From a bacterium (GTDB taxonomy: Bacteria; CSSED10-310; JAJRTK01): DNA of 35,947 nt. Below are positions 2,600 through 32,561 of this stretch, piece by piece. Location: contig JAJRTK010000388.1 in NCBI GenBank assembly GCA_024278345.1, forward strand, positions 1 through 35,947, written 5' to 3'. The notes beneath the pieces are model-generated. The model worked only from the letters and a program-made list of their open reading frames with translations, did not search any database and was not told the origin of the DNA. The position numbers and the translations under genes are program-made. Each line of letters starts with the position of its first letter. The stretch's first letter is position 1.

Positions 2600-2625
2600 T
2601 CCCCCCAATGAACGGAGAAAAGTTC

Positions 2626-3885
2626 ATGAGTGACAGGTTTAAGGTCAAGGATTTGGGCATGGCGGAGCACGGTCGCCTCAAAATTGAGTGGGCTGAGTCC
2701 AGGATGCCAGTTTTGATGGCCCTTCGCAAGAAATACGAAGAGACTAAGCCCCTGGCTGGGCAGCGGATTGCCGGGTGTCTTCACGTTACGAAGGAGACAG
2801 CGGTTCTGATTCGGACCCTTCGGGCGGCAGGCGCCGAGATCTCCTGGTCCGGCTGCAACCCGCTCTCTACGCAGGACGAGATCGCCGCGGCTCTGGCCGC
2901 CGATGGCATTTCCATTTACGCCTGGCATGGGATGAGTGTCGATGACTTCTACTGGTGCATTGATCGGACCCTTGACTTCAAGCCGACCTTGACCCTTGAT
3001 GATGGCGCGGACCTCATCATGCGCGTCCACACGAAGTTCCCCCATTTGTCCGACACGGTCATCGGCGGGACCGAGGAAACGACCACGGGCGTTCACCGGT
3101 TGCGCGCAATGGCCGATGATGGCGCACTTCTCTATCCCGTGCTGGCCATCAATGACGCGGAAACCAAGTGGGACTTCGACAACGTTTACGGCACGGGTCA
3201 GTCCTCTCTTGACGGCATCATTCGCGCCACCAGCGTGCTTCTTGCCGGCAAAAATTTCGTCACGGCCGGTTACGGTCATTGCGGCCGAGGCTGCGCCATG
3301 CGCGCCGCCGGAATGGGTGCCAGCACCATCATTACTGAGATCAAGGCCACGGCAGCCCTCAAAGCGACCCTCGAAGGGCACAAGGTCATGACCATGGACG
3401 AAGCAGCCAAGGTCGGCGACATCTTTATCACCGCCACGGGGATGAGAGACGTGATCCGGAAGCGCCATTTCCAGTCCATGAAGGATGGTGCCATCGTCTG
3501 TAACACCGGCCACTACGACTGTGAGATCAACATCCCCGAGCTCGAGGAGCTCGCCACGAAGGTTCGAACCATCCGGCCCAATTGCGAGGAGTTCACCCTG
3601 GCCGACGGTCGGCGCATCTATCTTCTGGCCCGAGGGCGGCTGGTCAATCTGGCGGCAGCCGAAGGGCATCCTTCCGAGGTGATGGACATGTCGTTCGCCA
3701 ACCAGTTCTTGGGCATGCTCCGCCTTGCCCGGAGCGGCAAGGATCTTTCCAACGGAGTCCACGACATCGAGGTGGCCCAGGATCAAGAGGTCGCCACCAT
3801 TAAGCTTGCGACGATGGGCCTCGAAATCGACAAGTTGACCGAAGAGCAGAGTGTTTACGCCACGGATTACTTGGCGGGAACCTGA
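2626..3885 (+). CDS. ahcY: Adenosylhomocysteinase
   Basis: This 419-residue cytosolic enzyme hydrolyses S-adenosyl-L-homocysteine to adenosine and homocysteine, removing the product inhibitor of methyltransferases. Visible family marks are CLHVTKETAVL (His53), the catalytic Lys181 and Asp185 in DAETKWDFDNVYGTGQS, the NAD-binding loop GYGHCGRG (215-222) and NTGHYDCEIN. The protein stops at LTEEQSVYATDYLAGT without the longer C-terminal tail ending in YRY that most eukaryotic and many bacterial enzymes carry. It is therefore the shorter form seen in archaea and some thermophilic bacteria. The ATG at 2626 is preferred over 2608 because GGAG lies about 9 nt before it. The gene follows the SahR-like regulator and is closed by a strong terminator. 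Confidence 0.97.
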   Translation: MSDRFKVKDLGMAEHGRLKIEWAESRMPVLMALRKKYEETKPLAGQRIAGCLHVTKETAVLIRTLRAAGAEISWSGCNPLSTQDEIAAALAADGISIYAWHGMSVDDFYWCIDRTLDFKPTLTLDDGADLIMRVHTKFPHLSDTVIGGTEETTTGVHRLRAMADDGALLYPVLAINDAETKWDFDNVYGTGQSSLDGIIRATSVLLAGKNFVTAGYGHCGRGCAMRAAGMGASTIITEIKATAALKATLEGHKVMTMDEAAKVGDIFITATGMRDVIRKRHFQSMKDGAIVCNTGHYDCEINIPELEELATKVRTIRPNCEEFTLADGRRIYLLARGRLVNLAAAEGHPSEVMDMSFANQFLGMLRLARSGKDLSNGVHDIEVAQDQEVATIKLATMGLEIDKLTEEQSVYATDYLAGT

Positions 3886-3954
3886 TCCGGGGAGGCCGGG
3901 ACGACGCGGTGCTCCAGGATCGCGACCTCTGCGGTGACGCACCGCTTTTCATGG

Positions 3955-3987
3955 CGGGCCATTTCGTTTGGGATGGCCCGTTTTTTT
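3955..3987 (+). terminator. Intrinsic terminator of ahcY
   Basis: The arms CGGGCCAT (3955-3962) and ATGGCCCG (3973-3980) form a perfect 8-bp stem with a 10-nt loop, followed at once by seven T residues (3981-3987). It lies about 70 bp after the ahcY stop and separates it from the convergent lipoprotein gene. Confidence 0.9.
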
Positions 3988-18131: not shown

Positions 18132-18209
18132 GGCTACTCTCCTGCTCCCAAACCTTATACCGGTTCAAGGGCATGATCACGGCCAACACCCCAAGCGTTG
18201 GAAGGCAGC

Positions 18210-19523
18210 ATGAACAATACCCTAGAAATCCAGGACCCATCAGGCAAGCTGGGAGTCCTCATTCCAGGCCTTGGCGCGGTCGGTACGACCTTCATCGCCG
18301 GCGTCTACGCCACCCGAAAAGGGATCGCGAAACCCGTCGGTTCCCTGACACAGCTTAACACGATTCGTCTTGGCAAACGCACGGACAAACGTGTCCCCCT
18401 CATCAAAGATTTCGTGCCTCTAGCCCAGTTGGACAATCTGGTGTTCGGCGGCTGGGATATCTTCAAGGACAATGCCTACGAGGCCGCAAAGAAAGCCGGA
18501 GTCCTCAATCCCACCCACCTGGCAGCCGTGCGTCCCGAGCTTGAAGCCATTGTTCCTTGGCCCGCCGTTTACGATGCCACCTACCTTCCGCGTATCAAGG
18601 GGGAAAATGTCAAGTCGGGCGAAACCAAGATGGATTTGGCCAAGCAGGTCATCGAGGACATCCAGCGCTTCCAAAGGGGAAATGATCTGGCCAGAATGGT
18701 GATGATCTGGTGTGGCAGCACGGAGGTTTTTATCGAGAAGTGCGATGTCCACAATACACTGGAGACCTTTGAACAGGGCCTCCGGGAGAATCATCCCATG
18801 ATCTCTCCCTCAATGATCTATGCCTATGCCTCCCTTCAATGTGGAGTCCCCTTCGCCAACGGTGCGCCGAACCTCTGCGTGGACATTCCGGCCATGGTGG
18901 AGCTGGCCCGGGAAAAATGCGTTCCCATTTGCGGAAAAGACTTCAAGACCGGCCAAACCCTCATGAAGACCATCATCGCCCCCGGCCTCAAGTCCCGGAT
19001 GTTAGGGGTCCATGGGTGGTTTTCCACCAACATTCTGGGGAATCGCGATGGGGAGGTTCTCGATCATCCAGAAAGCTTCAAGACCAAGGAGAAATCAAAG
19101 CTCTCCGTCTTGGAACAAATTCTCCAACCCGACCTCTATCCCGACCTCTACAAAGGGTTGGATCACTTGGTCAGGATCAACTATTACCCTCCCCGCGGAG
19201 ATGCCAAGGAGGGTTGGGACAACATCGATTTCTTCGGCTGGATGGGCTATCCCATGCAGCTCAAGATCAACATGCTCTGCCGCGATAGCATCTTGGCCGC
19301 GCCCATCGTTCTCGATCTGGCCCTTTTCCTGGATCTGGCCCAACGGTGCGACTTCCGCGGGATCCAGGAGTGGTTGAGCTTCTACTTCAAGTCGCCTCAA
19401 TGCGCCGACAAGCTCTACCCAGAGCACGATCTCTTCATCCAGATGATGAAGCTCAAAAATACGCTCCGCTACATGCGCGGCGAAGACGTCATTACTCACC
19501 TGGGCCTTGAATACTACGATTGA
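18210..19523 (+). CDS. ino1: myo-Inositol-1-phosphate synthase
   Basis: The 437-residue protein converts glucose 6-phosphate to 1L-myo-inositol 1-phosphate using bound NAD, the first step to inositol lipids or inositol-derived solutes. The NAD-binding loop is GLGAVG (20-25). Family blocks are easy to see: MVMIWCGSTEVF, NGAPNLCVDIP, GKDFKTGQTLMKT and the strongly conserved FFGWMGYPMQLKINMLCRDS followed by ILAAPIVLDLALF. The length is normal for the bacterial form. ATG 18210 is preceded by GGAAGG at 4 nt; the TTG at 18198 is less likely. No inositol monophosphatase or phosphatidylinositol synthase gene is in the window, so the final product cannot be inferred from context. Confidence 0.95.
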   Translation: MNNTLEIQDPSGKLGVLIPGLGAVGTTFIAGVYATRKGIAKPVGSLTQLNTIRLGKRTDKRVPLIKDFVPLAQLDNLVFGGWDIFKDNAYEAAKKAGVLNPTHLAAVRPELEAIVPWPAVYDATYLPRIKGENVKSGETKMDLAKQVIEDIQRFQRGNDLARMVMIWCGSTEVFIEKCDVHNTLETFEQGLRENHPMISPSMIYAYASLQCGVPFANGAPNLCVDIPAMVELAREKCVPICGKDFKTGQTLMKTIIAPGLKSRMLGVHGWFSTNILGNRDGEVLDHPESFKTKEKSKLSVLEQILQPDLYPDLYKGLDHLVRINYYPPRGDAKEGWDNIDFFGWMGYPMQLKINMLCRDSILAAPIVLDLALFLDLAQRCDFRGIQEWLSFYFKSPQCADKLYPEHDLFIQMMKLKNTLRYMRGEDVITHLGLEYYD

Positions 19524-19688: not shown

Positions 19689-22649
19689 CTAGAACTTCAA
19701 ACGCATTCCAAGCTGCACTTGAAGCGGTTCGTAAGCATCATTGAGGGTTGCCCCGGGGTTGTGCCCGTTACCGGTGTCGATGATGTTGTAGCTGTCAGGA
19801 TCGTGGTTCTTCCGATTCAGAAGGTTGAACCCCTCGGCCAACACCAACACCTTGAACCGATTGCCGATCTCGAACTCCTTCGACAGCCGCAAGTCCCAGC
19901 GGATATAGGTATCGGCACGCCCATCGGTACGGGTCGTCCCCTTGGCGATGTCATTGGGATTGCCGTCGTTGTTGAGGTCGGCATTGGCGGCGATCTCGAA
20001 TGGAGGGCCGGAACCGACTCTGAGGAGCGTTCCTACCCGGACCCCGTAAGGTGCCTGGTAGGTGCCCAGCAGGTTGAAGACATGGGTCTGATCGACGTTG
20101 GCGATGGCCACTTCTTGCTCGGTTTCACCCCGAAGGACCGCGGCGCTGTCAAGGGCTACGTCCGACGTGGGATTGTCTTGCCACCGTTCCGCCCTGGACC
20201 AGGTGTAGTTGATCCGCATTTCCCAGTCGTTGGACATTCGCTTGTGGAAACCCATCTGCACGGAGTTGAAGGTCGATTGTGCAATCGTCTTGAAGGTTCG
20301 GATGGGGCCGAAGGGAACACCCGCCTTGATGAGCGGCCGGCTCAAGGGATTATAGTCGCAATAGCCGTCGTTGCCGGTATCAACACAGGTGCCATCGTCG
20401 TTCATCAAGAGATCTTCAGGCGCATTGGTGTCCACGGTAATGAGCTCGTTGCGACCCAGGGCATTGGTGTAGTCAAGGGTGACGGCAATATCGGGCGTCA
20501 AGGTTCGGGAAATTCCCAACGCTGCCTGCATGGTGTATGGAACCTTCCCATCCGGGTCGGAAGCGTAGATCAGCGGGGCAATCGTGGGATCCGCCCCTTT
20601 GCGCAACGGATTTGTGAAGGTCATCCCCGTGTTGGGATCGAAGTAGTCGGGAAGAATCGTGATCTCCCCCGCGTAGGAGCCGAACTGTCCCACGCCGGGA
20701 ATCCGGATCCCGCTCAATGTCGTGGGGAAGAGGGAGATCGTGCCTTCGAAGAAGGAGTAGAAGACACCCCAGCCACCGCGGAGCAGGGTCTTCCCATCGT
20801 TGGTGAGGTCGTAAGTGAACCCGAAGCGTGGGGCGATGTTGTTCCAGTCCCGGTCCGGCGGCGTGACGTAGGGTTTCAGAGCGTCGGCGAAACCCGGAAT
20901 GGGAACGTCCAAGAGCGGGCTTCGGAAACTGGAATTCAAGGTATCGCTGTCGAAGTCCCAGCGGACGCCCAGGCTCACGGTGAGGCGATCACCGACCGTC
21001 CAGTCGTCCTGAGCATAAACGCCGATCACCGTACGATCCTGGCTGTAACGAGGAGGAGTCCCTACGCCCTCGACCTTCAGAACCGGAAAACCAAACGCAT
21101 AGCGTGCCAACTGTACTGGATCGGTGAAATCCTGCGGAATGAAGAAAGGACCGTCCGCGGAGCATCCGAAGGGGTCGCCGGGAATACACCGGAAGGTGTA
21201 CTGGCTGTTGGAGAAGATGGGAAAGTCCATCCTCAGGCTCCGGAACTGCAAATCGCCGCCAAACTTGAGCGTGTGGCTCCCAACCTGCACGCTGAAGTTT
21301 TCCGACATGGCAAGAGAATTATCATCCGTGTTGGAGAATCCGGCAAGGTAGAAACCTCCCTGGCGGCTGCTGGGGCGAATCTCTTCCTGCAAATCGCTGT
21401 TGCGAACGCTTGGCCGATCTGCAAACACCGCGTAGAGGGAAAGCTGATTCGATGCGTTGGCAAAGGGCGTCCAGTTGTGGGAACCAAGGATGAAGTTGGT
21501 CTTTTGGTCTTCAGAGAAGTAGTTGCTTTCCGTGGCGATGGAGGGTTCGAACCCGGTGAGGTTTCCGGAGTTGGTGGTTTTCCGCTGCTCATACGTGTAC
21601 CGCAGGAAGACCCGCATATTGTCGCTGATCTGCTGGTCGATCTTGGCGAAGAGGTTACTGGTCTCCACTTTGTTGGGAACATCGCCGTCCAGCTCGGGAA
21701 AGGTCCCCGCCGTATCCACGTTGAAGGTCAAGTCCTGATCCCGCCGTTCGAAGGCCACTAAAAAGTGGGTCTTGTCCTGGACAATGGGACCTGAAACCAA
21801 ACCACCGAACTGATGGCGCCTATAATCATCATTGGGGCCATCGAATTCGCCGGACGCCTGCAAGCTTTTGTCCCGGAAATACTCCCAAACCGTTCCGGTA
21901 AGATCGTTCGTGCCCGACTTACTGATGACCGTGATCGCGCCGGCATTCGTCCGACCGATGTCTGCACCGAAGTTCGCCGTCACGACCCGATACTCCTGGA
22001 TCGTTTCCTGGATCGATGTCTGGAATGCGCCTCCGATAAAGTGGCTCGTCGTGTCCACACCGTCGGTTGCGATCAACGTCGCGCTGGGATCCTGAGCACC
22101 CATGACCACCTGGGTCCCGAGGAGCGTAGGATCGCGACCCTCACGAACACCCGGCGTCAGAAGAGCCAGATCGAGAAAATCCCGGTCGTTGAGAGGAAGA
22201 TTCGCGATCTCTTGTGTCGTTACACCAGAGGAGATAGCCGACGTGGTGATATCCACTGAAGCGGCATCAGCCGTGACGATGATTTCCGCTTCCAACGCCG
22301 AAAGCTCCAGCTTGAAGGTCAAGTCCAGCACTTCCCGCAATCGAAGAAAAGTACCCTCCCGGATCGCCTTCCGAAAACCGGTCAGCTCCGCTGAAATCGT
22401 GTAGGCGCCGGGCCGCAGACCACTCATGTAGAATCGGCCAGAAGCATCCGTAACCGTACTCTGCCGGATACCGGTTCCCGAAAGCTCCGCGGTGACCGTT
22501 GATCCCGGCAATGGAGAACCAGCCTGATCTTGGACCTCGCCTCGGATTGAGGACGTGGCCAATTGAGCCAGGGCGTCACTCGTGTGCCAAACAAACAGCA
22601 CGGCGAGCCCCAGCCAAAGAAACGAGCGATTCATCAGCCTCCCTTTCAT
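19689..22649 (-). CDS. TonB-dependent receptor, Oar-like, with N-terminal carboxypeptidase-regulatory-like domain
   Basis: This is an outer-membrane protein of about 986 residues. It has a signal peptide (MNRSFLWLGLAVLFVW... ending ALAQ) and a CarboxypepD_reg-like beta domain (about 30-115, with SSIRGEVQDQAGSPLPGSTV and GLRPGAYTISAELTGF). A plug domain follows (about 120-230, IANLPLNDRDFLDLALLTPG), then a long beta-barrel rich in alternating aromatic strands that ends in Phe (LGMRLKF). This type is expanded in Acidobacteriota and Myxococcota, and its substrates are often peptides or oligosaccharides; here the substrate is unknown. No SusD-like partner is adjacent. ATG 22649 has AGAGAGG at 5 nt; ATG 22634 with GGGAGG at 3 nt is an alternative, and a GTG at 22655 is less likely. 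Transcription probably starts near 22860 through a structured leader. Confidence 0.93.
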   Translation of the reverse strand: MKGRLMNRSFLWLGLAVLFVWHTSDALAQLATSSIRGEVQDQAGSPLPGSTVTAELSGTGIRQSTVTDASGRFYMSGLRPGAYTISAELTGFRKAIREGTFLRLREVLDLTFKLELSALEAEIIVTADAASVDITTSAISSGVTTQEIANLPLNDRDFLDLALLTPGVREGRDPTLLGTQVVMGAQDPSATLIATDGVDTTSHFIGGAFQTSIQETIQEYRVVTANFGADIGRTNAGAITVISKSGTNDLTGTVWEYFRDKSLQASGEFDGPNDDYRRHQFGGLVSGPIVQDKTHFLVAFERRDQDLTFNVDTAGTFPELDGDVPNKVETSNLFAKIDQQISDNMRVFLRYTYEQRKTTNSGNLTGFEPSIATESNYFSEDQKTNFILGSHNWTPFANASNQLSLYAVFADRPSVRNSDLQEEIRPSSRQGGFYLAGFSNTDDNSLAMSENFSVQVGSHTLKFGGDLQFRSLRMDFPIFSNSQYTFRCIPGDPFGCSADGPFFIPQDFTDPVQLARYAFGFPVLKVEGVGTPPRYSQDRTVIGVYAQDDWTVGDRLTVSLGVRWDFDSDTLNSSFRSPLLDVPIPGFADALKPYVTPPDRDWNNIAPRFGFTYDLTNDGKTLLRGGWGVFYSFFEGTISLFPTTLSGIRIPGVGQFGSYAGEITILPDYFDPNTGMTFTNPLRKGADPTIAPLIYASDPDGKVPYTMQAALGISRTLTPDIAVTLDYTNALGRNELITVDTNAPEDLLMNDDGTCVDTGNDGYCDYNPLSRPLIKAGVPFGPIRTFKTIAQSTFNSVQMGFHKRMSNDWEMRINYTWSRAERWQDNPTSDVALDSAAVLRGETEQEVAIANVDQTHVFNLLGTYQAPYGVRVGTLLRVGSGPPFEIAANADLNNDGNPNDIAKGTTRTDGRADTYIRWDLRLSKEFEIGNRFKVLVLAEGFNLLNRKNHDPDSYNIIDTGNGHNPGATLNDAYEPLQVQLGMRLKF

Positions 22650-22721
22650 CTCCACCTCTCTGGAAAAGAATCCATCTTAGACCCTGCTTCACAATCCACT
22701 AAAAACGACTCACCTCGTTAG

Positions 22722-22843
22722 AAAAAACTGGCCGATGCACCGGGACCTACAAGCGGTCCCTCTTGCCAGCTCCCATGATCGATGAACATCGGCGTTACCC
22801 CTTATAAAAGCCCGCGAGTTCTGGCTGGTACTTCCTCCGATGT
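22722..22843 (-). promoter_or_regulatory. Attenuator-like leader of the TonB receptor (competing stems plus U-run)
   Basis: Read on the minus strand, segment A ACATCGG (22843-22837) can pair with B GCCGATGT (22793-22786). B can instead pair with C CATCGGC (22737-22731). A separate stem D AGCTGGC (22771-22765) with E GCCAGTT (22732-22726) encloses a hairpin GGGACC/GGTCCC (22760-22742) and abuts a run of six U (22727-22722). C and E overlap, so the states exclude each other. This is the architecture of a transcription attenuator or riboswitch. No known riboswitch core is recognised. Confidence 0.45.
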
Positions 22844-22866
22844 CCCACCATCCCACTACGCGAATC

Positions 22867-22896
22867 ATTATAGAAAAAACCTATACAAAAGCGCAA
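22867..22896 (-). promoter_or_regulatory. Promoter of the TonB receptor gene
   Basis: On the minus strand a perfect -10 box TATAAT (22872-22867) follows TTGCGC (22896-22891) at 18 bp; the -35 matches the consensus only in TTG. The surrounding 100 bp are clearly more AT-rich than the rest of the window. The start would be near 22860, giving a leader of about 210 nt. Confidence 0.5.
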
Positions 22897-22976
22897 CCAT
22901 TTTCCGCCAGTTTATTCCAAGAAGACAAAACTACAGAGGCAGATCTCGCTATCGATCGGCCCCAGAAGCCCTGGAA

Positions 22977-23065
22977 CCTGGCGGAGGCTCCGCCTCCAAA
23001 CCTCCGCCAGGAGCGCTGGTTATGGCCCGCGGCCATAACGAAGAGTCGGCTCCGCCGACCAACCA
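22977..23065. repeat. Cluster of consecutive hairpins (repetitive palindromic element)
   Basis: There are three strong stems in 90 bp. The first has 11-bp arms 22977-22987/23001-23011 (CCTGGCGGAGG with CCTCCGCCAGG), and an alternative hairpin GGAGGC-TCC-GCCTCC lies inside. The second is GTTATGGCC-CGC-GGCCATAAC (23019-23039). The third is GTCGGC-TCC-GCCGAC (23045-23059). TGGTT (23017-23021) and AACCA (23061-23065) can close the last two into one structure. From 22656 to 23227 I find no convincing complete gene; this cluster, the promoter and the leader are what it holds. Confidence 0.75.
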
Positions 23066-23227
23066 TGACATGCCCCGGGAGTCCATTGCCTGCTTCAAAG
23101 TCCTATCTACAGCCGTCATAAGCAATTGGATCGCATCGCCGATGGCGTTCTCGCCGTCGATGACGGGCTTCGAGGCAGCCGCGGTGCTAAGGGAAAACGA
23201 GCCGGCGAAAGGAGTCCGTGGACCGAG

Positions 23228-23701
23228 CTACGCACTGGGATCACGGCCCGGCACGCAGTTGTACGCTTCGTGGGGACTGACCGTGAGTTCGACCCGCTTC
23301 CGGAGACTCTGAACCTCCGCCTTCAACGATTTCGGCAGGCTCTCCACGTACGCCTCTCTCCGGGCCGGAAGAATCTTCAGGCTCTCCAGGGTATCCCTGA
23401 GCATAGGTTTTGGCGCGATTTTTCGCGCGGGCTGATCCAGAGCCCAGAGAGCCTCCGCGCAGTCCGCGTCGAGTTCCATCAACTCGAGGAGCGCCCGCTT
23501 CCCGACCTCACGCTCACCAACTCCCAATCGATCCAAGGTTCGAAACAGGATGAGGGATTCCAGGCGCTCTTCTTCCAGTACTTGGCGAAGATCATGGGGC
23601 ATGCCCGGCGCCTGTTCGACAGTCAGGCGCTTGAATCGCCTGGAAGGGAACCTGTTTCTTGCCGACTTTTTCTTTTTTCTTGCCGACTTTTTCTTTTTCA
23701 T
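23228..23701 (-). CDS. Small lysine-rich helical protein, unknown function
   Basis: The 157-residue protein starts MKKKKSARKKKKSARN, a duplicated basic heptad produced by a 21-bp direct repeat. The remainder is mostly charged helix (LRQVLEEERLESLILFRTL, VGKRALLELMELDADCAEAL, SLPKSLKAEVQSLRKRVEL). I do not recognise a family. The basic head could bind nucleic acid or acidic lipid. ATG 23701 has AAGGA about 10 nt upstream; the frame upstream of it is not protein-like. It ends in TAG, and the same frame stays open for many more codons after that stop, including a plausible helix (see findings). There is no signal peptide or membrane segment. Confidence 0.6.
   Translation of the reverse strand: MKKKKSARKKKKSARNRFPSRRFKRLTVEQAPGMPHDLRQVLEEERLESLILFRTLDRLGVGEREVGKRALLELMELDADCAEALWALDQPARKIAPKPMLRDTLESLKILPARREAYVESLPKSLKAEVQSLRKRVELTVSPHEAYNCVPGRDPSA
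23658..23699. repeat. 21-bp tandem repeat in the gene start
   Basis: Two units of 21 bp (23658-23678 and 23679-23699), each CTTGCCGACTTTTTCTTTTT plus one base, encode the doubled KKKKSAR at the N-terminus of the small basic protein. The poly-A/T tracts in it are prone to length change. Confidence 0.8.
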
Positions 23702-24189: not shown

Positions 24190-24774
24190 ATGAGAAGCAA
24201 AATCGTCGGAGTCATGGGGGCTTCGGCCCATGCTCATCCAGAATTGTCCCGCCCCGTGGGCCGGCTCATTGCCCGGATGGGTTTTCACCTATTGACCGGC
24301 GGTGGTTCCGGCGTCATGGCCGCGGTTGCCAAGGCCTTCTGCCAAGTAAAAGACCGTACGGGGGTGAGCATCGGGATCCTTCGGAGCCTCTCCATGCCTA
24401 TCTGGAGCCCGCCGGGCACCCCGCTGGAGTATGCCCGGCCCTACGTGAACGAGTGGGTGGAGATCCCCATTTTCACGCACCTTCCCCTCAGCGGGGAACA
24501 GGGCCGCGATCCCTTGAGCCGAAACCATCTCAACGTCCTGAGCGCAGACATCCTCGTCGCGCTCCCCGGCGGGGCTGGGACCTGCTCGGAGGTCTCCCTC
24601 CGAGTGGATTACGGTCGATCCGTGATCCTCTTCCTTGGGAGCGAAACCATCGACGGGAAGGGGGCCGACGTCGTTGCCCGGCTGGCCAAAAAGACCGGTC
24701 AGATCACCATCTGCCAAGGGATTGAATCCCTCCGCAAGGCCATCGGGGATTGTGATGGCGGGTCGCGACCCTAG
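24190..24774 (+). CDS. SLOG/LOG-family nucleotide-binding protein (MoCo-carrier or TIGR00725-like)
   Basis: The 194-residue Rossmann-like protein has GGGSGVM (37-43) followed by an Ala-rich helix, and PGGAGTCSEV (126-135), the two nucleotide- or phosphoribose-binding loops of the LOG/SLOG superfamily. Members range from cytokinin-type phosphoribohydrolases to molybdenum-cofactor carriers. The second loop has Ala-Gly-Thr-Cys rather than the PGGxGTxxE of canonical LOG enzymes with a distal catalytic Arg, so I would not claim phosphoribohydrolase activity. A cytosolic location is expected. ATG 24190 has GGAG at 6 nt. It converges with the ALDH gene 36 bp away; the gap holds a GGCCCCGGGGCC palindrome but no T-run. 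Confidence 0.8.
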   Translation: MRSKIVGVMGASAHAHPELSRPVGRLIARMGFHLLTGGGSGVMAAVAKAFCQVKDRTGVSIGILRSLSMPIWSPPGTPLEYARPYVNEWVEIPIFTHLPLSGEQGRDPLSRNHLNVLSADILVALPGGAGTCSEVSLRVDYGRSVILFLGSETIDGKGADVVARLAKKTGQITICQGIESLRKAIGDCDGGSRP

Positions 24775-24810: not shown

Positions 24811-26364
24811 CTACCCAAATTTGATCCCCTGAGCCAGGGGCAGTTCCTTGCTCCAGTTGACGGTGTTCGTTTGGCGCCGCATATAAGCTTTCCAGGCATC
24901 CGACCCCGATTCGCGGCCGCCGCCTGTTTCCTTCTCGCCGCCGAAGGCGCCGCCGATCTCCGCGCCACTGGTGCCGATGTTCACATTGGCGATGCCGCAA
25001 TCGCTGCCGCGGTGGGAAAGGAAGAGCTCCGCTTCCCGGAGGTGCTGGGTGAAGATGGAGGAGGAAAGCCCCTGGGGCACATCGTTGTGGAGCGCCATGG
25101 CCTCTTCTATTTCGGCCACCGCCTCCTTCGGGGAGGCCGAGGCATTGCCATAACCAATGATGTAGAGGATCGGCGCGAAGGTCTCTTCTTGAACGATGGC
25201 GAACTCGTTTTTCGCCGTGGCGATACAGGGCTGGACGTAGTGGCCGCCCGGGTATTCCGGTCCGTCGAGGGTCTCGCCCCCGAAGAGGATTTCTCCGCCC
25301 TCTTCCCGGACTTGCCGTATAGCCTTCTGGAGATCGGTCCCGGCGCTCTTGGTCACCAGGGGTCCCATGAGAGTTTCGGGCTTCCGCGGGTCGCCGATCT
25401 TCACGTCGGCGTAGGCCCGAACAAGCCGAGTGACGAGCTCTTCCCGCACCGACTCGTGGACCAGGATCCGCCGGGTACTGGTGCAACGCTGGCCGGCCGT
25501 GCCCACCGCGCCAAAGAGAATTGCCGGGAGCGCAAGATCCAGGTCGGCATGCGGGGTCACGATAATGGCGTTGTTGCCACCCAGCTCCAGGATGGTTCGG
25601 CCAAGGCGCTTCCCCACCACCGACCCGACCCGGTACCCCATCTTGCAGCTTCCCGTGGCGGAGACAAGAGGGATTCGCTTGTCGTGGAGAAGCCGGTCCC
25701 CCACGATGGATCCCTTGCCGATGCTGAGCGAGAAGATCGCCGGATCCACGCCGTTTTCCAAGCAGACCTCGTGGGCAATCTTGGTGCAGGCGATGGCGGT
25801 GAGGGGCGTTTGGCTCGAGGGCTTCCAGAGGACACTGTCGCCGCAGACAGCGGCGAGGGCCGTATTCCAACACCAAACTGCCACGGGAAAGTTGAACGCG
25901 CTGATGACACCCACGACGCCAAGGGGATGCCACTGCTCGAACATCCGGTGATCCTGCCGCTCGGATGTCATGGTCAGACCGTACAGTTGCCGCGATAGGC
26001 CGGTGGCGAAGTCGCAGATGTCGATCATCTCCTGGACTTCGCCTTCTCCCTCGGCCAGGATCTTCCCCATTTCCAGGGTGACCAGAGCGCCTAGCTCAGT
26101 TTTCTTTTGGCGCAGCCGGTTGCCGAGCTTGCGGATCAAGTCGCCTCGCTTCGGGCCGGGCACGGTGCGCCAGTGGAGAAACGCCCTGTGGGCGCCCTCG
26201 ACGATCTGGTCGTATTCTCCTTCCGTGACCTGTTGCACAGTTCCGATGACGGAGCCGTTGATGGGGGTCGTGACTTCGAGTTCGGGGCCGGAACCGATCC
26301 ATTCGCCGGCGAAGCCACCGGGATTCAACGACTCGATTCCAAGGGCTTTTAGAACATTATTCAT
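24811..26364 (-). CDS. amaB: Aldehyde dehydrogenase of the ALDH7 type (aminoadipate-semialdehyde / piperideine-6-carboxylate dehydrogenase)
   Basis: This 517-residue NAD(P)-dependent enzyme oxidises a semialdehyde to an acid. Visible features are SAFNFPVAVWCWNTALA and WKPSSQTPLTAIA (cofactor binding), the general base Glu in LELGGNNA (about residue 258) and catalytic Cys294 in GTAGQRCTSTRR. The C-terminal blocks ANVNIGTSGAEIGGAFGGEK and ETGGGRESGSDAWKAYMRRQ are typical of ALDH7/AmaB enzymes of lysine catabolism. The gene symbol is based on these blocks, and no other lysine-degradation gene is nearby. ATG 26364 has GAGG at about 8 nt; the TTG at 26388 is less likely. It is divergent from ygiQ across about 290 bp. 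Confidence 0.9.
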   Translation of the reverse strand: MNNVLKALGIESLNPGGFAGEWIGSGPELEVTTPINGSVIGTVQQVTEGEYDQIVEGAHRAFLHWRTVPGPKRGDLIRKLGNRLRQKKTELGALVTLEMGKILAEGEGEVQEMIDICDFATGLSRQLYGLTMTSERQDHRMFEQWHPLGVVGVISAFNFPVAVWCWNTALAAVCGDSVLWKPSSQTPLTAIACTKIAHEVCLENGVDPAIFSLSIGKGSIVGDRLLHDKRIPLVSATGSCKMGYRVGSVVGKRLGRTILELGGNNAIIVTPHADLDLALPAILFGAVGTAGQRCTSTRRILVHESVREELVTRLVRAYADVKIGDPRKPETLMGPLVTKSAGTDLQKAIRQVREEGGEILFGGETLDGPEYPGGHYVQPCIATAKNEFAIVQEETFAPILYIIGYGNASASPKEAVAEIEEAMALHNDVPQGLSSSIFTQHLREAELFLSHRGSDCGIANVNIGTSGAEIGGAFGGEKETGGGRESGSDAWKAYMRRQTNTVNWSKELPLAQGIKFG

Positions 26365-26407
26365 CGGGTGCCTCGCGATCTTTGACAAGGTTGTAGGTCA
26401 AGCTTTA

Positions 26408-30743: not shown

Positions 30744-30852
30744 TCCTTTGTGCGCTCCACGGCTTTCTCTTTGTTTCCTTGTAGTGTCCCGCCTTACGTG
30801 GATACCCGTCATTCTCCTTGTAGGGTGGGGGCTGAATAGGGCGGGGACAGTG

Positions 30853-30901
30853 GCGAGTAGCGGCGGACGGATGGACGCCGATGGGAGCGGAACGCAACCC
30901 A
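30853..30901 (+). repeat. 49-bp structured repeat element, copy 2
   Basis: The box GCGAGTAGCG, the core GCGGACGGATGGACGCC and a 22-nt box starting GATGGGAGCGGAACGC match copy 1 base for base in the 22-nt box. The ATG inside this box (30881) is in frame with the GT2 gene that follows and could be mistaken for its start. Confidence 0.85.
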
Positions 30902-30922
30902 ATATATGAGTTTGGCGAAAAG

Positions 30923-31666
30923 ATGCGTCTTGCCAAGATGATCCTTCATTATGTGACCGATGGGCTGACTCGCGAGCTCCTTGGGATGGTGCCCGATGCG
31001 TTGGTGGTGGACAATGGTTCTCCCCGTCCTTTTCCAGGGGCGGCGATTCGAAACGAAGACCTGGGTTTTACCCGTGGCTGGAACCGGGCGCTTGGGTTGC
31101 TCTACGACGAGTACGATGCGTTTTTGCTCATGAACAGCGACATTCGGATGTCGATGGAGCAGATTGAGGAGCTTCGCCAGATTCTTGTGAACAATCCTGA
31201 TATCGGCCTTCTTAGCGGCGCGTGCAATTCGTGGCATCCATCCATGCGCCGTCCGTGGCGGTGGTGGCTCAAAAGGGCGGTGGATCCCAGGGAGGTTCCG
31301 TTCGTGGAGATGACCGCGCCTCTTATCCGGAAGGATCTTTTGGAGGCCGTGGGTTTTTTCGACGAGGCTTTGGCGCATGGTTATGGGGTGGACTACGATT
31401 TTGGGTTTCGGGCCTGGCAGGCGGGTTTTCGGGTTTGCGTTTGGGACAGTGTGAAGTTCTGTCACCTTGAGCATGGGACCATCCGGCGTACTGTTGGATT
31501 CAAAGAGTACCACCAGTTTGCCCGTAGGGAGATGGAGCGGGAGCTTTTGCGGAAATATGGGCCGCGTTTTTTCGATCCATCGGTCTATCCATTTTGGATG
31601 ATCGGCGGAGTGGGGGCTCCTCGCGGTGAGAACTGTTTTCTTAGCGGAGGCCCAGGCGCCCCATGA
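30923..31666 (+). CDS. Glycosyltransferase family 2 protein (short form)
   Basis: This 247-residue GT-A enzyme lacks a classical VSVVIPTYN start. It opens with MRLAKMILHYVTDGLTRELL, then DALVVDNGSP, the conserved NEDLGFTRGWNRAL, and MNSDIRMS in the place of the metal-binding DxD. The acceptor side has EVPFVEMTAPLIRKDLLEAVGFFDEAL, YGVDYDFGFRAWQAGFRV with the ED-like acidic pair, and a His-rich FCHLEHGT. It probably adds a sugar to a surface glycan. The start is ATG 30923 rather than ATG 30881, which lies inside the 49-bp repeat; neither has a strong ribosome site. Its last 26 bases overlap the end of the convergent GT2 gene. Confidence 0.82.
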   Translation: MRLAKMILHYVTDGLTRELLGMVPDALVVDNGSPRPFPGAAIRNEDLGFTRGWNRALGLLYDEYDAFLLMNSDIRMSMEQIEELRQILVNNPDIGLLSGACNSWHPSMRRPWRWWLKRAVDPREVPFVEMTAPLIRKDLLEAVGFFDEALAHGYGVDYDFGFRAWQAGFRVCVWDSVKFCHLEHGTIRRTVGFKEYHQFARREMERELLRKYGPRFFDPSVYPFWMIGGVGAPRGENCFLSGGPGAP

Positions 31667-32561
31667 CATATCCTTGTGCCGTGGCGGCGGCGCAGAGGGC
31701 TACGAACCGCTGTCTGGGTCGGAGAATTGCCGACCGCCAGATCTTCCGGCGATCTTTTTTCCCTCTTAGGGTGTAGGTGGGGGAAGCAAGGCCTGGTTCG
31801 TGAGCGGGAGAGAAGGTTTGCTTTCCAAGGCGTGCGCGGGTGACACCGTGCCAGTAGAACCGCTTGAGGAACCATTTTTTGGTCATTCGCTCGGGAGGCA
31901 CGAAATGCTCGACGCGGACCTTGGGGTGGTAGAGGCTGTGCCAGCCTCGGCTTTGGAGCTTGGAGAGCGCCAGGGATTCCTCGCCAGAGAGCAGGTTGTT
32001 CCCCACGCGGCCCAGGGTTGTGTCGAATCCGCCGATCTCTTCCAGTGGCTGGCGCAGCAGGGAGAGGTTGACGCCGGGGAGCCAGTGGTGGGGTTGGTGG
32101 CCGGGGCCTGGCAGGCGGGAGTCATCGAGAAGACTGAGGAACGGTAGAAGCTCATCCCCGAGCCATGCTGGCCTGGCGGCTTCCCAGATGGGGGCCACTG
32201 GTCCGCCCACGGCTGCCAGCGATGGGTGGCCGCTGTTGAAGGCGTTGATGATTTGCTCGAGCCAGTCTTTCGCGGCCATGGCGTCGTCGTCTAGAAATGC
32301 CACGATCCGGCCCTGAGAATGTCGTAGTCCTCTGTTCCTTGCATGGGAGAGTCCAAGGCGCGGTTCCGCCAGGAGGCGCAAGTTCGGGAGTGTTGGGGCT
32401 AGCTTTTGGAGGAGTTCTTGAGTGCCGTCGATGGATGCGTTGTCGATGACCAGGATCTCGTATTCATCGTTGGGAAGGGACTGTCGCCCAAGGCTTTGGA
32501 TCGCGCCTGGAAGATAGCGGCGTCGGTTGTGGGTGCAGATGATGGCAGAGATGGTGATCAT
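31641..32561 (-). CDS. Glycosyltransferase family 2 protein
   Basis: The 306-residue GT-A enzyme has ISAIICTHNRRRYLPGAIQS, EILVIDNASIDGTQELL, LGLSHARNRGLRHSQGRIVAFLDDD (DDD as metal site), then LPGVNLSLLRQPLEEIGGFD and SGEESLALSKLQSRGW. It is a typical inverting transferase acting at the cytoplasmic membrane face. ATG 32561 overlaps the TGA of the upstream YfhO/methyltransferase gene (ATGA), so translation is coupled and the two should act together. The frame is open far upstream only as a shadow of that gene. Confidence 0.92.
   Translation of the reverse strand: MITISAIICTHNRRRYLPGAIQSLGRQSLPNDEYEILVIDNASIDGTQELLQKLAPTLPNLRLLAEPRLGLSHARNRGLRHSQGRIVAFLDDDAMAAKDWLEQIINAFNSGHPSLAAVGGPVAPIWEAARPAWLGDELLPFLSLLDDSRLPGPGHQPHHWLPGVNLSLLRQPLEEIGGFDTTLGRVGNNLLSGEESLALSKLQSRGWHSLYHPKVRVEHFVPPERMTKKWFLKRFYWHGVTRARLGKQTFSPAHEPGLASPTYTLRGKKDRRKIWRSAILRPRQRFVALCAAATAQGYVMGRLGLR

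Follow-up and report, generated by a model that had tools for sequence, protein, structure and literature searches.

Among the leaders that act through an intrinsic terminator are the attenuators of the trp type and the transcriptional OFF riboswitches, in which the 3′ strand of P1 is swapped into an antiterminator.

For the bfrG operon of Bordetella pertussis, PMC9426467 describes an upstream ORF, CruR (DUF2946), which acts in a Rho-dependent manner and carries CXXC and RAPP motifs, and this ORF is the closest precedent found in our literature search. According to PMC8040213, HMP2_1032 is a candidate structured RNA with a predicted Rho-independent terminator; likened by description and not by sequence, the leader reported here also has a predicted terminator-like hairpin, but it precedes the gene of a TonB-dependent receptor, whereas HMP2_1032 is palindromic, is restricted to Bacteroidetes and lies mostly near the periplasmic protein TonB itself. 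An attenuator of an Oar-like receptor was not named among the titles and abstract openings listed for queries that did not contain that name and had subscription literature mostly outside their scope.

Layout of the leader and its neighbourhood

The leader was analysed within a bacterial DNA stretch of 35,947 nt (the window), and its features are given in Table 1. The TATAAT box, the pairing segments and the receptor gene lie on the minus strand in that order, with 72 nt between U6 and the receptor ATG and a whole 5′ leader of about 210 nt. The receptor matched PF13620 (9e-18), PF25183 (7.4e-84) and PF00593 (2.3e-10), and starts at ATG 22649 or at a second in-frame ATG at 22634.

Table 1. Coordinates of the leader features and of the receptor gene
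Feature	Sequence or size	Position	Strand	Remark
Putative promoter		22867..22896	(-)	transcription would start near 22860
-35	TTGCGC	22896-22891	(-)	3/6 matches, by eye; 18-nt spacer to -10
-10 box	TATAAT	22872-22867	(-)	exact match, read from sequence
Small ORF	18 codons	22795..22851	(-)	spans A, stop just ahead of B
A:B domain	62 nt	22784..22845	(-)	aptamer-like shape
Segment A	ACATCGG	22843-22837	(-)	pairs with B
Segment B	GCCGATGT	22793-22786	(-)	partner of either A or C
Small ORF	23 codons	22718..22789	(-)	ATG in B, TAA just beyond U6
Segment D	CTGGC	22769-22765	(-)	5′ arm of terminator-like stem
Inner hairpin	GGGACC-(7-nt loop)-GGTCCC	22760-22755 / 22747-22742	(-)	enclosed by D:E
Segment C	GCATCGGC	22738-22731	(-)	pairs with B
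Segment E	GCCAG	22732-22728	(-)	putative 3′ arm of terminator
U6		22727-22722	(-)	putative U tract of terminator
TonB-dependent receptor	986 aa	19689..22649	(-)	CarboxypepD_reg + OMP_b-brl_4 (Oar-like), Pfam

The first-pass annotation had claimed a perfect TATAAT upstream of the segments, exclusive 7-bp pairings of A:B and B:C, and a D:E stem that abuts six U residues and overlaps C. All of these were confirmed by direct reading, coordinates and pairings included. The best −35 in register with the TATAAT box is poor by eye, and no sigma-70 site was reported by a promoter scan of 22500-23300. Exact TATAAT occurs three times in the window (0.92 expected; 8 of 100 shuffles reach three), and the remaining two copies fall within the receptor gene.

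Inverted repeats lie ahead of the promoter on the minus strand at 23064-23044 and about 23008-22978 (GTCGGCGGAGCCGAC and GGCGGAGCCTCCGCC, respectively), and are possibly the end signal of the upstream gene. Farther upstream of the receptor, a SLOG cluster4 family protein (PF18306, 9.4e-27) is encoded on the opposite strand at 24190-24774 (+), and an L-piperidine-6-carboxylate dehydrogenase (NF050084, above cut-off) on the minus strand at 24811-26388. On the other side, a myo-inositol-1-phosphate synthase gene (PF07994 and PF01658) at 18198-19523 (+) is convergent with the receptor gene.

Predicted folds and their stability

A and C compete for B because CATCGG is common to both; A:B consists of 7 Watson-Crick pairs, and B:C of 7 Watson-Crick pairs and one G-U pair. 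The closing stem of the A:B domain comprises nine pairs, one of them G-U (22845-22837 / 22792-22784), and encloses the nested stems TACC:GGTA and AGCC:GGCT; no family match to this domain was obtained in Rfam. D:E is formed by 5 Watson-Crick pairs with a bulge and can be prolonged into the U run by G-U and A-U pairs. Together with the inner hairpin and U6, it gives the stable G+C-rich stem followed by a U tract that characterizes an intrinsic terminator; the hairpin was absent from the output of a short-loop terminator scan. C and E overlap by 2 nt, and B:C is crossed by D:E. Since the B:C stem ends only 3 nt ahead of U6, the B:C fold may itself terminate transcription too.

Calculation with RNAfold, a step suggested in the first-pass annotation, gave near-degenerate energies for the B:C fold (−48.8 kcal/mol) and the A:B + D:E fold (−47.8 kcal/mol), and the best fold containing D:E (−48.4 kcal/mol) was one without A:B. 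For unconstrained RNA ending at U6, the probabilities (P) of A:B, B:C and D:E were 0.62, 0.29 and 0.70, respectively, and for RNA ending 9 nt later, at 22713, they were 0.35, 0.58 and 0.41, so that B:C overtakes A:B as the likelier fold once these nucleotides are transcribed. When A:B was forced, P(D:E) was 1.0 at U6 and 0.96 with RNA to 22713; when B:C was forced, it was 0. In prediction, this behaviour follows attenuator logic, with A:B allowing termination and B:C blocking it. Unconstrained RNA to 22734 only gave a P(A:B) of 0.20, and the piece from B to U6 (22722-22793) alone took B:C, not D:E. Covering A led to a third fold, with P(B:C) of 0.04-0.08 and P(D:E) of 0.05-0.09, and the folds of the growing RNA chain switched several times. 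Antiterminator and terminator are thus mutually exclusive in prediction, yet D:E can form without A:B, B:C approaches U6 and a third fold exists, so that a clean two-state model is too simple for the predicted structures. The expectation of at least two alternative folds, one of them terminator-like, was upheld in prediction.

Stability was compared with that of 200 dinucleotide shuffles for each piece. The 150-nt leader as a whole was ordinary (z −0.50; 56/200 shuffles equally stable). The D:E hairpin with U6 (51 nt, 22722-22772) reached −22.1 kcal/mol (z −2.85, 0/200), and the 21-nt piece of the inner hairpin −12.2 kcal/mol (z −4.25, 0/200). Values for the other pieces were z −1.83 (10/200) for 22722-22793, z −1.18 (27/200) for 22722-22806, z −1.22 (21/200) for 22786-22862, and z −1.40 (20/200) for the A:B domain at 22784-22847 (−18.7 kcal/mol).

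Among 3000 dinucleotide shuffles of the leader's own 175 nt, A:B and B:C pairings of at least 7 Watson-Crick pairs each were present in 10, and the same pairing plus C near T6, or plus D:E at T6, in none; with loosened limits (6 pairs, T5) the counts were 45, 3 and 0 per 1000 shuffles. When the window was divided into 1432 overlapping stretches of 175 nt, the A/B/C pairing was present in 28 and T6 in just one of these, the leader's own. A comparison set was made of 531 distinct T6 runs in other loci, 95 of them with a G+C content of at least 0.5. The A/B/C pairing lay upstream of 35 of the 531 runs, with C at most 8 nt from the run in 9; a hairpin at least as stable as −20 kcal/mol stood at 22, and was combined with a near C at 2. 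The G+C-rich runs gave 5 with the pairing, 3 with C near and 10 with a strong hairpin. Considering that the pattern was freely chosen in a 36-kb window, the arrangement is uncommon but within chance.

The leader hairpin (−20.2 kcal/mol) ties for second place among the 67 runs of T5 or longer in the window, level with 3953-3982 (+). The latter is a terminator-like hairpin of 13 pairs with T7, directly after the ORF at 2608-3885 (+), if that is truly a gene, and suggests that the organism uses intrinsic terminators.

Search for relatives of the leader

No Rfam match was obtained at the gathering score in the window, or for 22600-23230 when E values up to 5 were admitted, in agreement with the earlier statement that no known riboswitch was recognised. 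Among the genomes searched, the organism's own is the sole one of its genus, and the 7 further ones of the phylum all belong to other families. Matches to the leader at the DNA level were pieces of 15-38 nt only. Six weak ones, none better than E 0.43, came from the own genome and were short, and the two that were inspected resembled chance; 14 short matches in 13 of 97 other genomes had E values of 0.024-0.095, and none of these was retained as a relative.

A covariance search for homologous leaders, likewise proposed in the first-pass annotation, came out negative in the own genome, 385 others and 89 receptor-related loci. The model represented this one leader, folded as A:B + D:E, and matched only its own source when it was run on the rest of the own genome and the 7 same-phylum genomes. 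It gave no match in the 89 loci besides the window, nor, under stricter filters, in the 385 genomes besides the own (the same 7 and 378 more distant). Receptor relatives in the own genome and the same phylum are about 24-35% identical, and the best-scoring receptor in a contig scan, which works by short peptide patterns and may overlook relatives, was 30% identical over residues 12-951. Given such distant receptors, failure to find a conserved leader would be expected in any case; the lack of a homologue leaves the leader without covariation, recurrence or a clue to a ligand.

Upstream regions of other receptor genes were compared with the leader. Four loci of the own genome, including that of the window, carry the OMP_b-brl_4 barrel. 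A total of 86 upstream regions of 300 nt were collected from 20 of 22 own-genome and same-phylum rows, leaving out a second match row of the gene on C20 and the truncated L098, and from 66 of 68 contig-scan loci, two being dropped for a start that was not found or had less than 150 nt upstream. Start codons were assigned by a simple rule, which failed in at least one case, L092, by choosing an internal start. T5 with a fold better than −10 kcal/mol was found in 21 regions, and the A/B/C pairing in 15, the window's included; both were found together in 4 of 86, with C adjoining the run only in the window's. Two candidates were rejected: the paralogue on C395, in which a T5 hairpin lies about 105 nt ahead of the start without the A/B/C pairing, and L044, which resembles a gene-end terminator beside a repeat. 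The receptor paralogue match at L091 (G000:C120:13339-15135) spans one TAA stop, owing to a broken gene, a frameshift or an assembly error.

Competing explanations and known systems

The explanation we tentatively prefer, rating it as quite possible but short of probable, is that the 5′ leader of the receptor mRNA is an attenuator leader acting by premature termination. Transcription would begin at the putative promoter; if A paired with B, the D:E hairpin would form and run into U6, and the polymerase would stop near 22722 and release a short transcript, some 140 nt long. With B paired to C instead, D:E could not form because E would be partly occupied, and transcription would read through into the receptor gene. 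A:B would then correspond to the off state and B:C to the on state, and candidate triggers of the switch are a small molecule, a protein, leader translation or temperature. The near-degenerate folds, the forced-fold coupling, the stable D:E hairpin with U6, the absence of the combination from 3000 shuffles, its single occurrence among the window stretches, the high rank of the hairpin among the T runs of the window and the position between TATAAT and a same-strand gene argue for this explanation. The missing homologous leader, the ordinary stability of the whole leader, the independence of D:E from A:B, the prevalence of B:C once 9 more nt are transcribed, the closeness of B:C to U6, the third fold, the short bulged D:E stem missed by the short-loop scan, the poor −35 and the frequency of the A/B/C pairing upstream of receptors argue against it.

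The main rival is that this is an ordinary 5′ leader in which the pairings and the U6 hairpin arose by chance and no regulated termination takes place; we regard it as doubtful, yet serious. It is consistent with the shuffle-like stability of the whole leader, with the frequency of A/B/C-type pairings in the window and upstream of receptors, with the strong hairpins at other T6 runs, especially G+C-rich ones, with the lack of a copy in any genome searched and with the free choice of pattern. The combination with a strong hairpin and U6 just behind a TATAAT, absent from 3000 shuffles and approached at 2/531 T6 runs, and the z value of the terminator piece speak against chance. The promoter-like box and terminator-like hairpin, which flank about 140 nt, would also fit an independent small RNA that starts and ends at these two elements, the receptor being expressed by low read-through or from another promoter. 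Such an RNA seems improbable, since neither a homologue nor an Rfam match (E up to 5) was found, since no second promoter was seen in the scan of 22500-23300 or by eye in 22720-22650, and since a same-strand place ahead of a gene is more simply explained as that gene's leader.

Leader-peptide attenuation, in which translation of a small ORF decides the fold, is unlikely, though less so than the small RNA. Both small ORFs overlie the pairing segments. A ribosome that has reached the stop codon of the 18-codon ORF would cover B, so that D:E would form and transcription stop, and one on the 23-codon ORF would cover C, D, E and U6 and prevent termination; in the folding model, blocking 22812-22780 gave P(D:E) of 1.0 and covering the 23-codon ORF gave 0. 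Small frames are, however, expected in any comparable stretch, and 16 were listed here, one running 52 codons across the leader. A codon score as high as that of the 18-codon ORF was seen in 3.5% of background strings, and 5.8% of gene pieces scored lower; for the 23-codon ORF the figures were 3.9% and 2.8%, respectively (reference set of 9 ORFs, one of them, 30809-31669, doubtful). Both scores thus fall between gene and background, where the two distributions overlap, so that control by leader translation is possible. By eye, a good Shine-Dalgarno sequence is missing from the 18-codon ORF, AAGG stands 10 nt before the 23-codon ORF, and neither ORF shows a run of regulatory codons or a stalling motif of a known type. 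As described in PMC9426467, CruR offers a precedent for control of a TonB-dependent transporter operon by an upstream ORF, and resembles this locus in premature termination before such a gene; it differs in being Rho-dependent and in its CXXC and RAPP motifs, neither of which occurs in the two small ORFs.

An undescribed ligand-sensing, riboswitch-like leader, with the 62-nt A:B domain as sensor controlling uptake by the Oar-like receptor, would be the least expected outcome, and we consider it very unlikely. The interpretation in the first-pass annotation is supported in part: its term attenuator-like is fair because the predicted folds are exclusive, the hairpin ranks near the top of the window and Rfam gave no match; its suggestion of a new ligand-sensing leader gained no positive evidence. 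If the ligand-sensing explanation were true, it would mean sensor-controlled uptake in a sparsely sampled phylum. If attenuation as such were true, an Oar-like receptor would be controlled by premature termination, which might hint at the transported compound. At present the locus amounts to a single orphan leader whose fold is plausible, a useful test case and little more.

Compared with attenuators and OFF riboswitches, the leader gave neither an aptamer match nor a homologue in the searches above, C overlaps the 3′ arm of the terminator (E) by 2 nt and is not its 5′ arm, and D:E is able to form without A:B. In terms of an OFF riboswitch, A:B would act as P1 and B:C as the antiterminator. 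The likeness lies in the competition of three segments and in a terminator-like hairpin with a U tract before the gene. The leader is plausibly an orphan attenuator of transcription whose general type is known.
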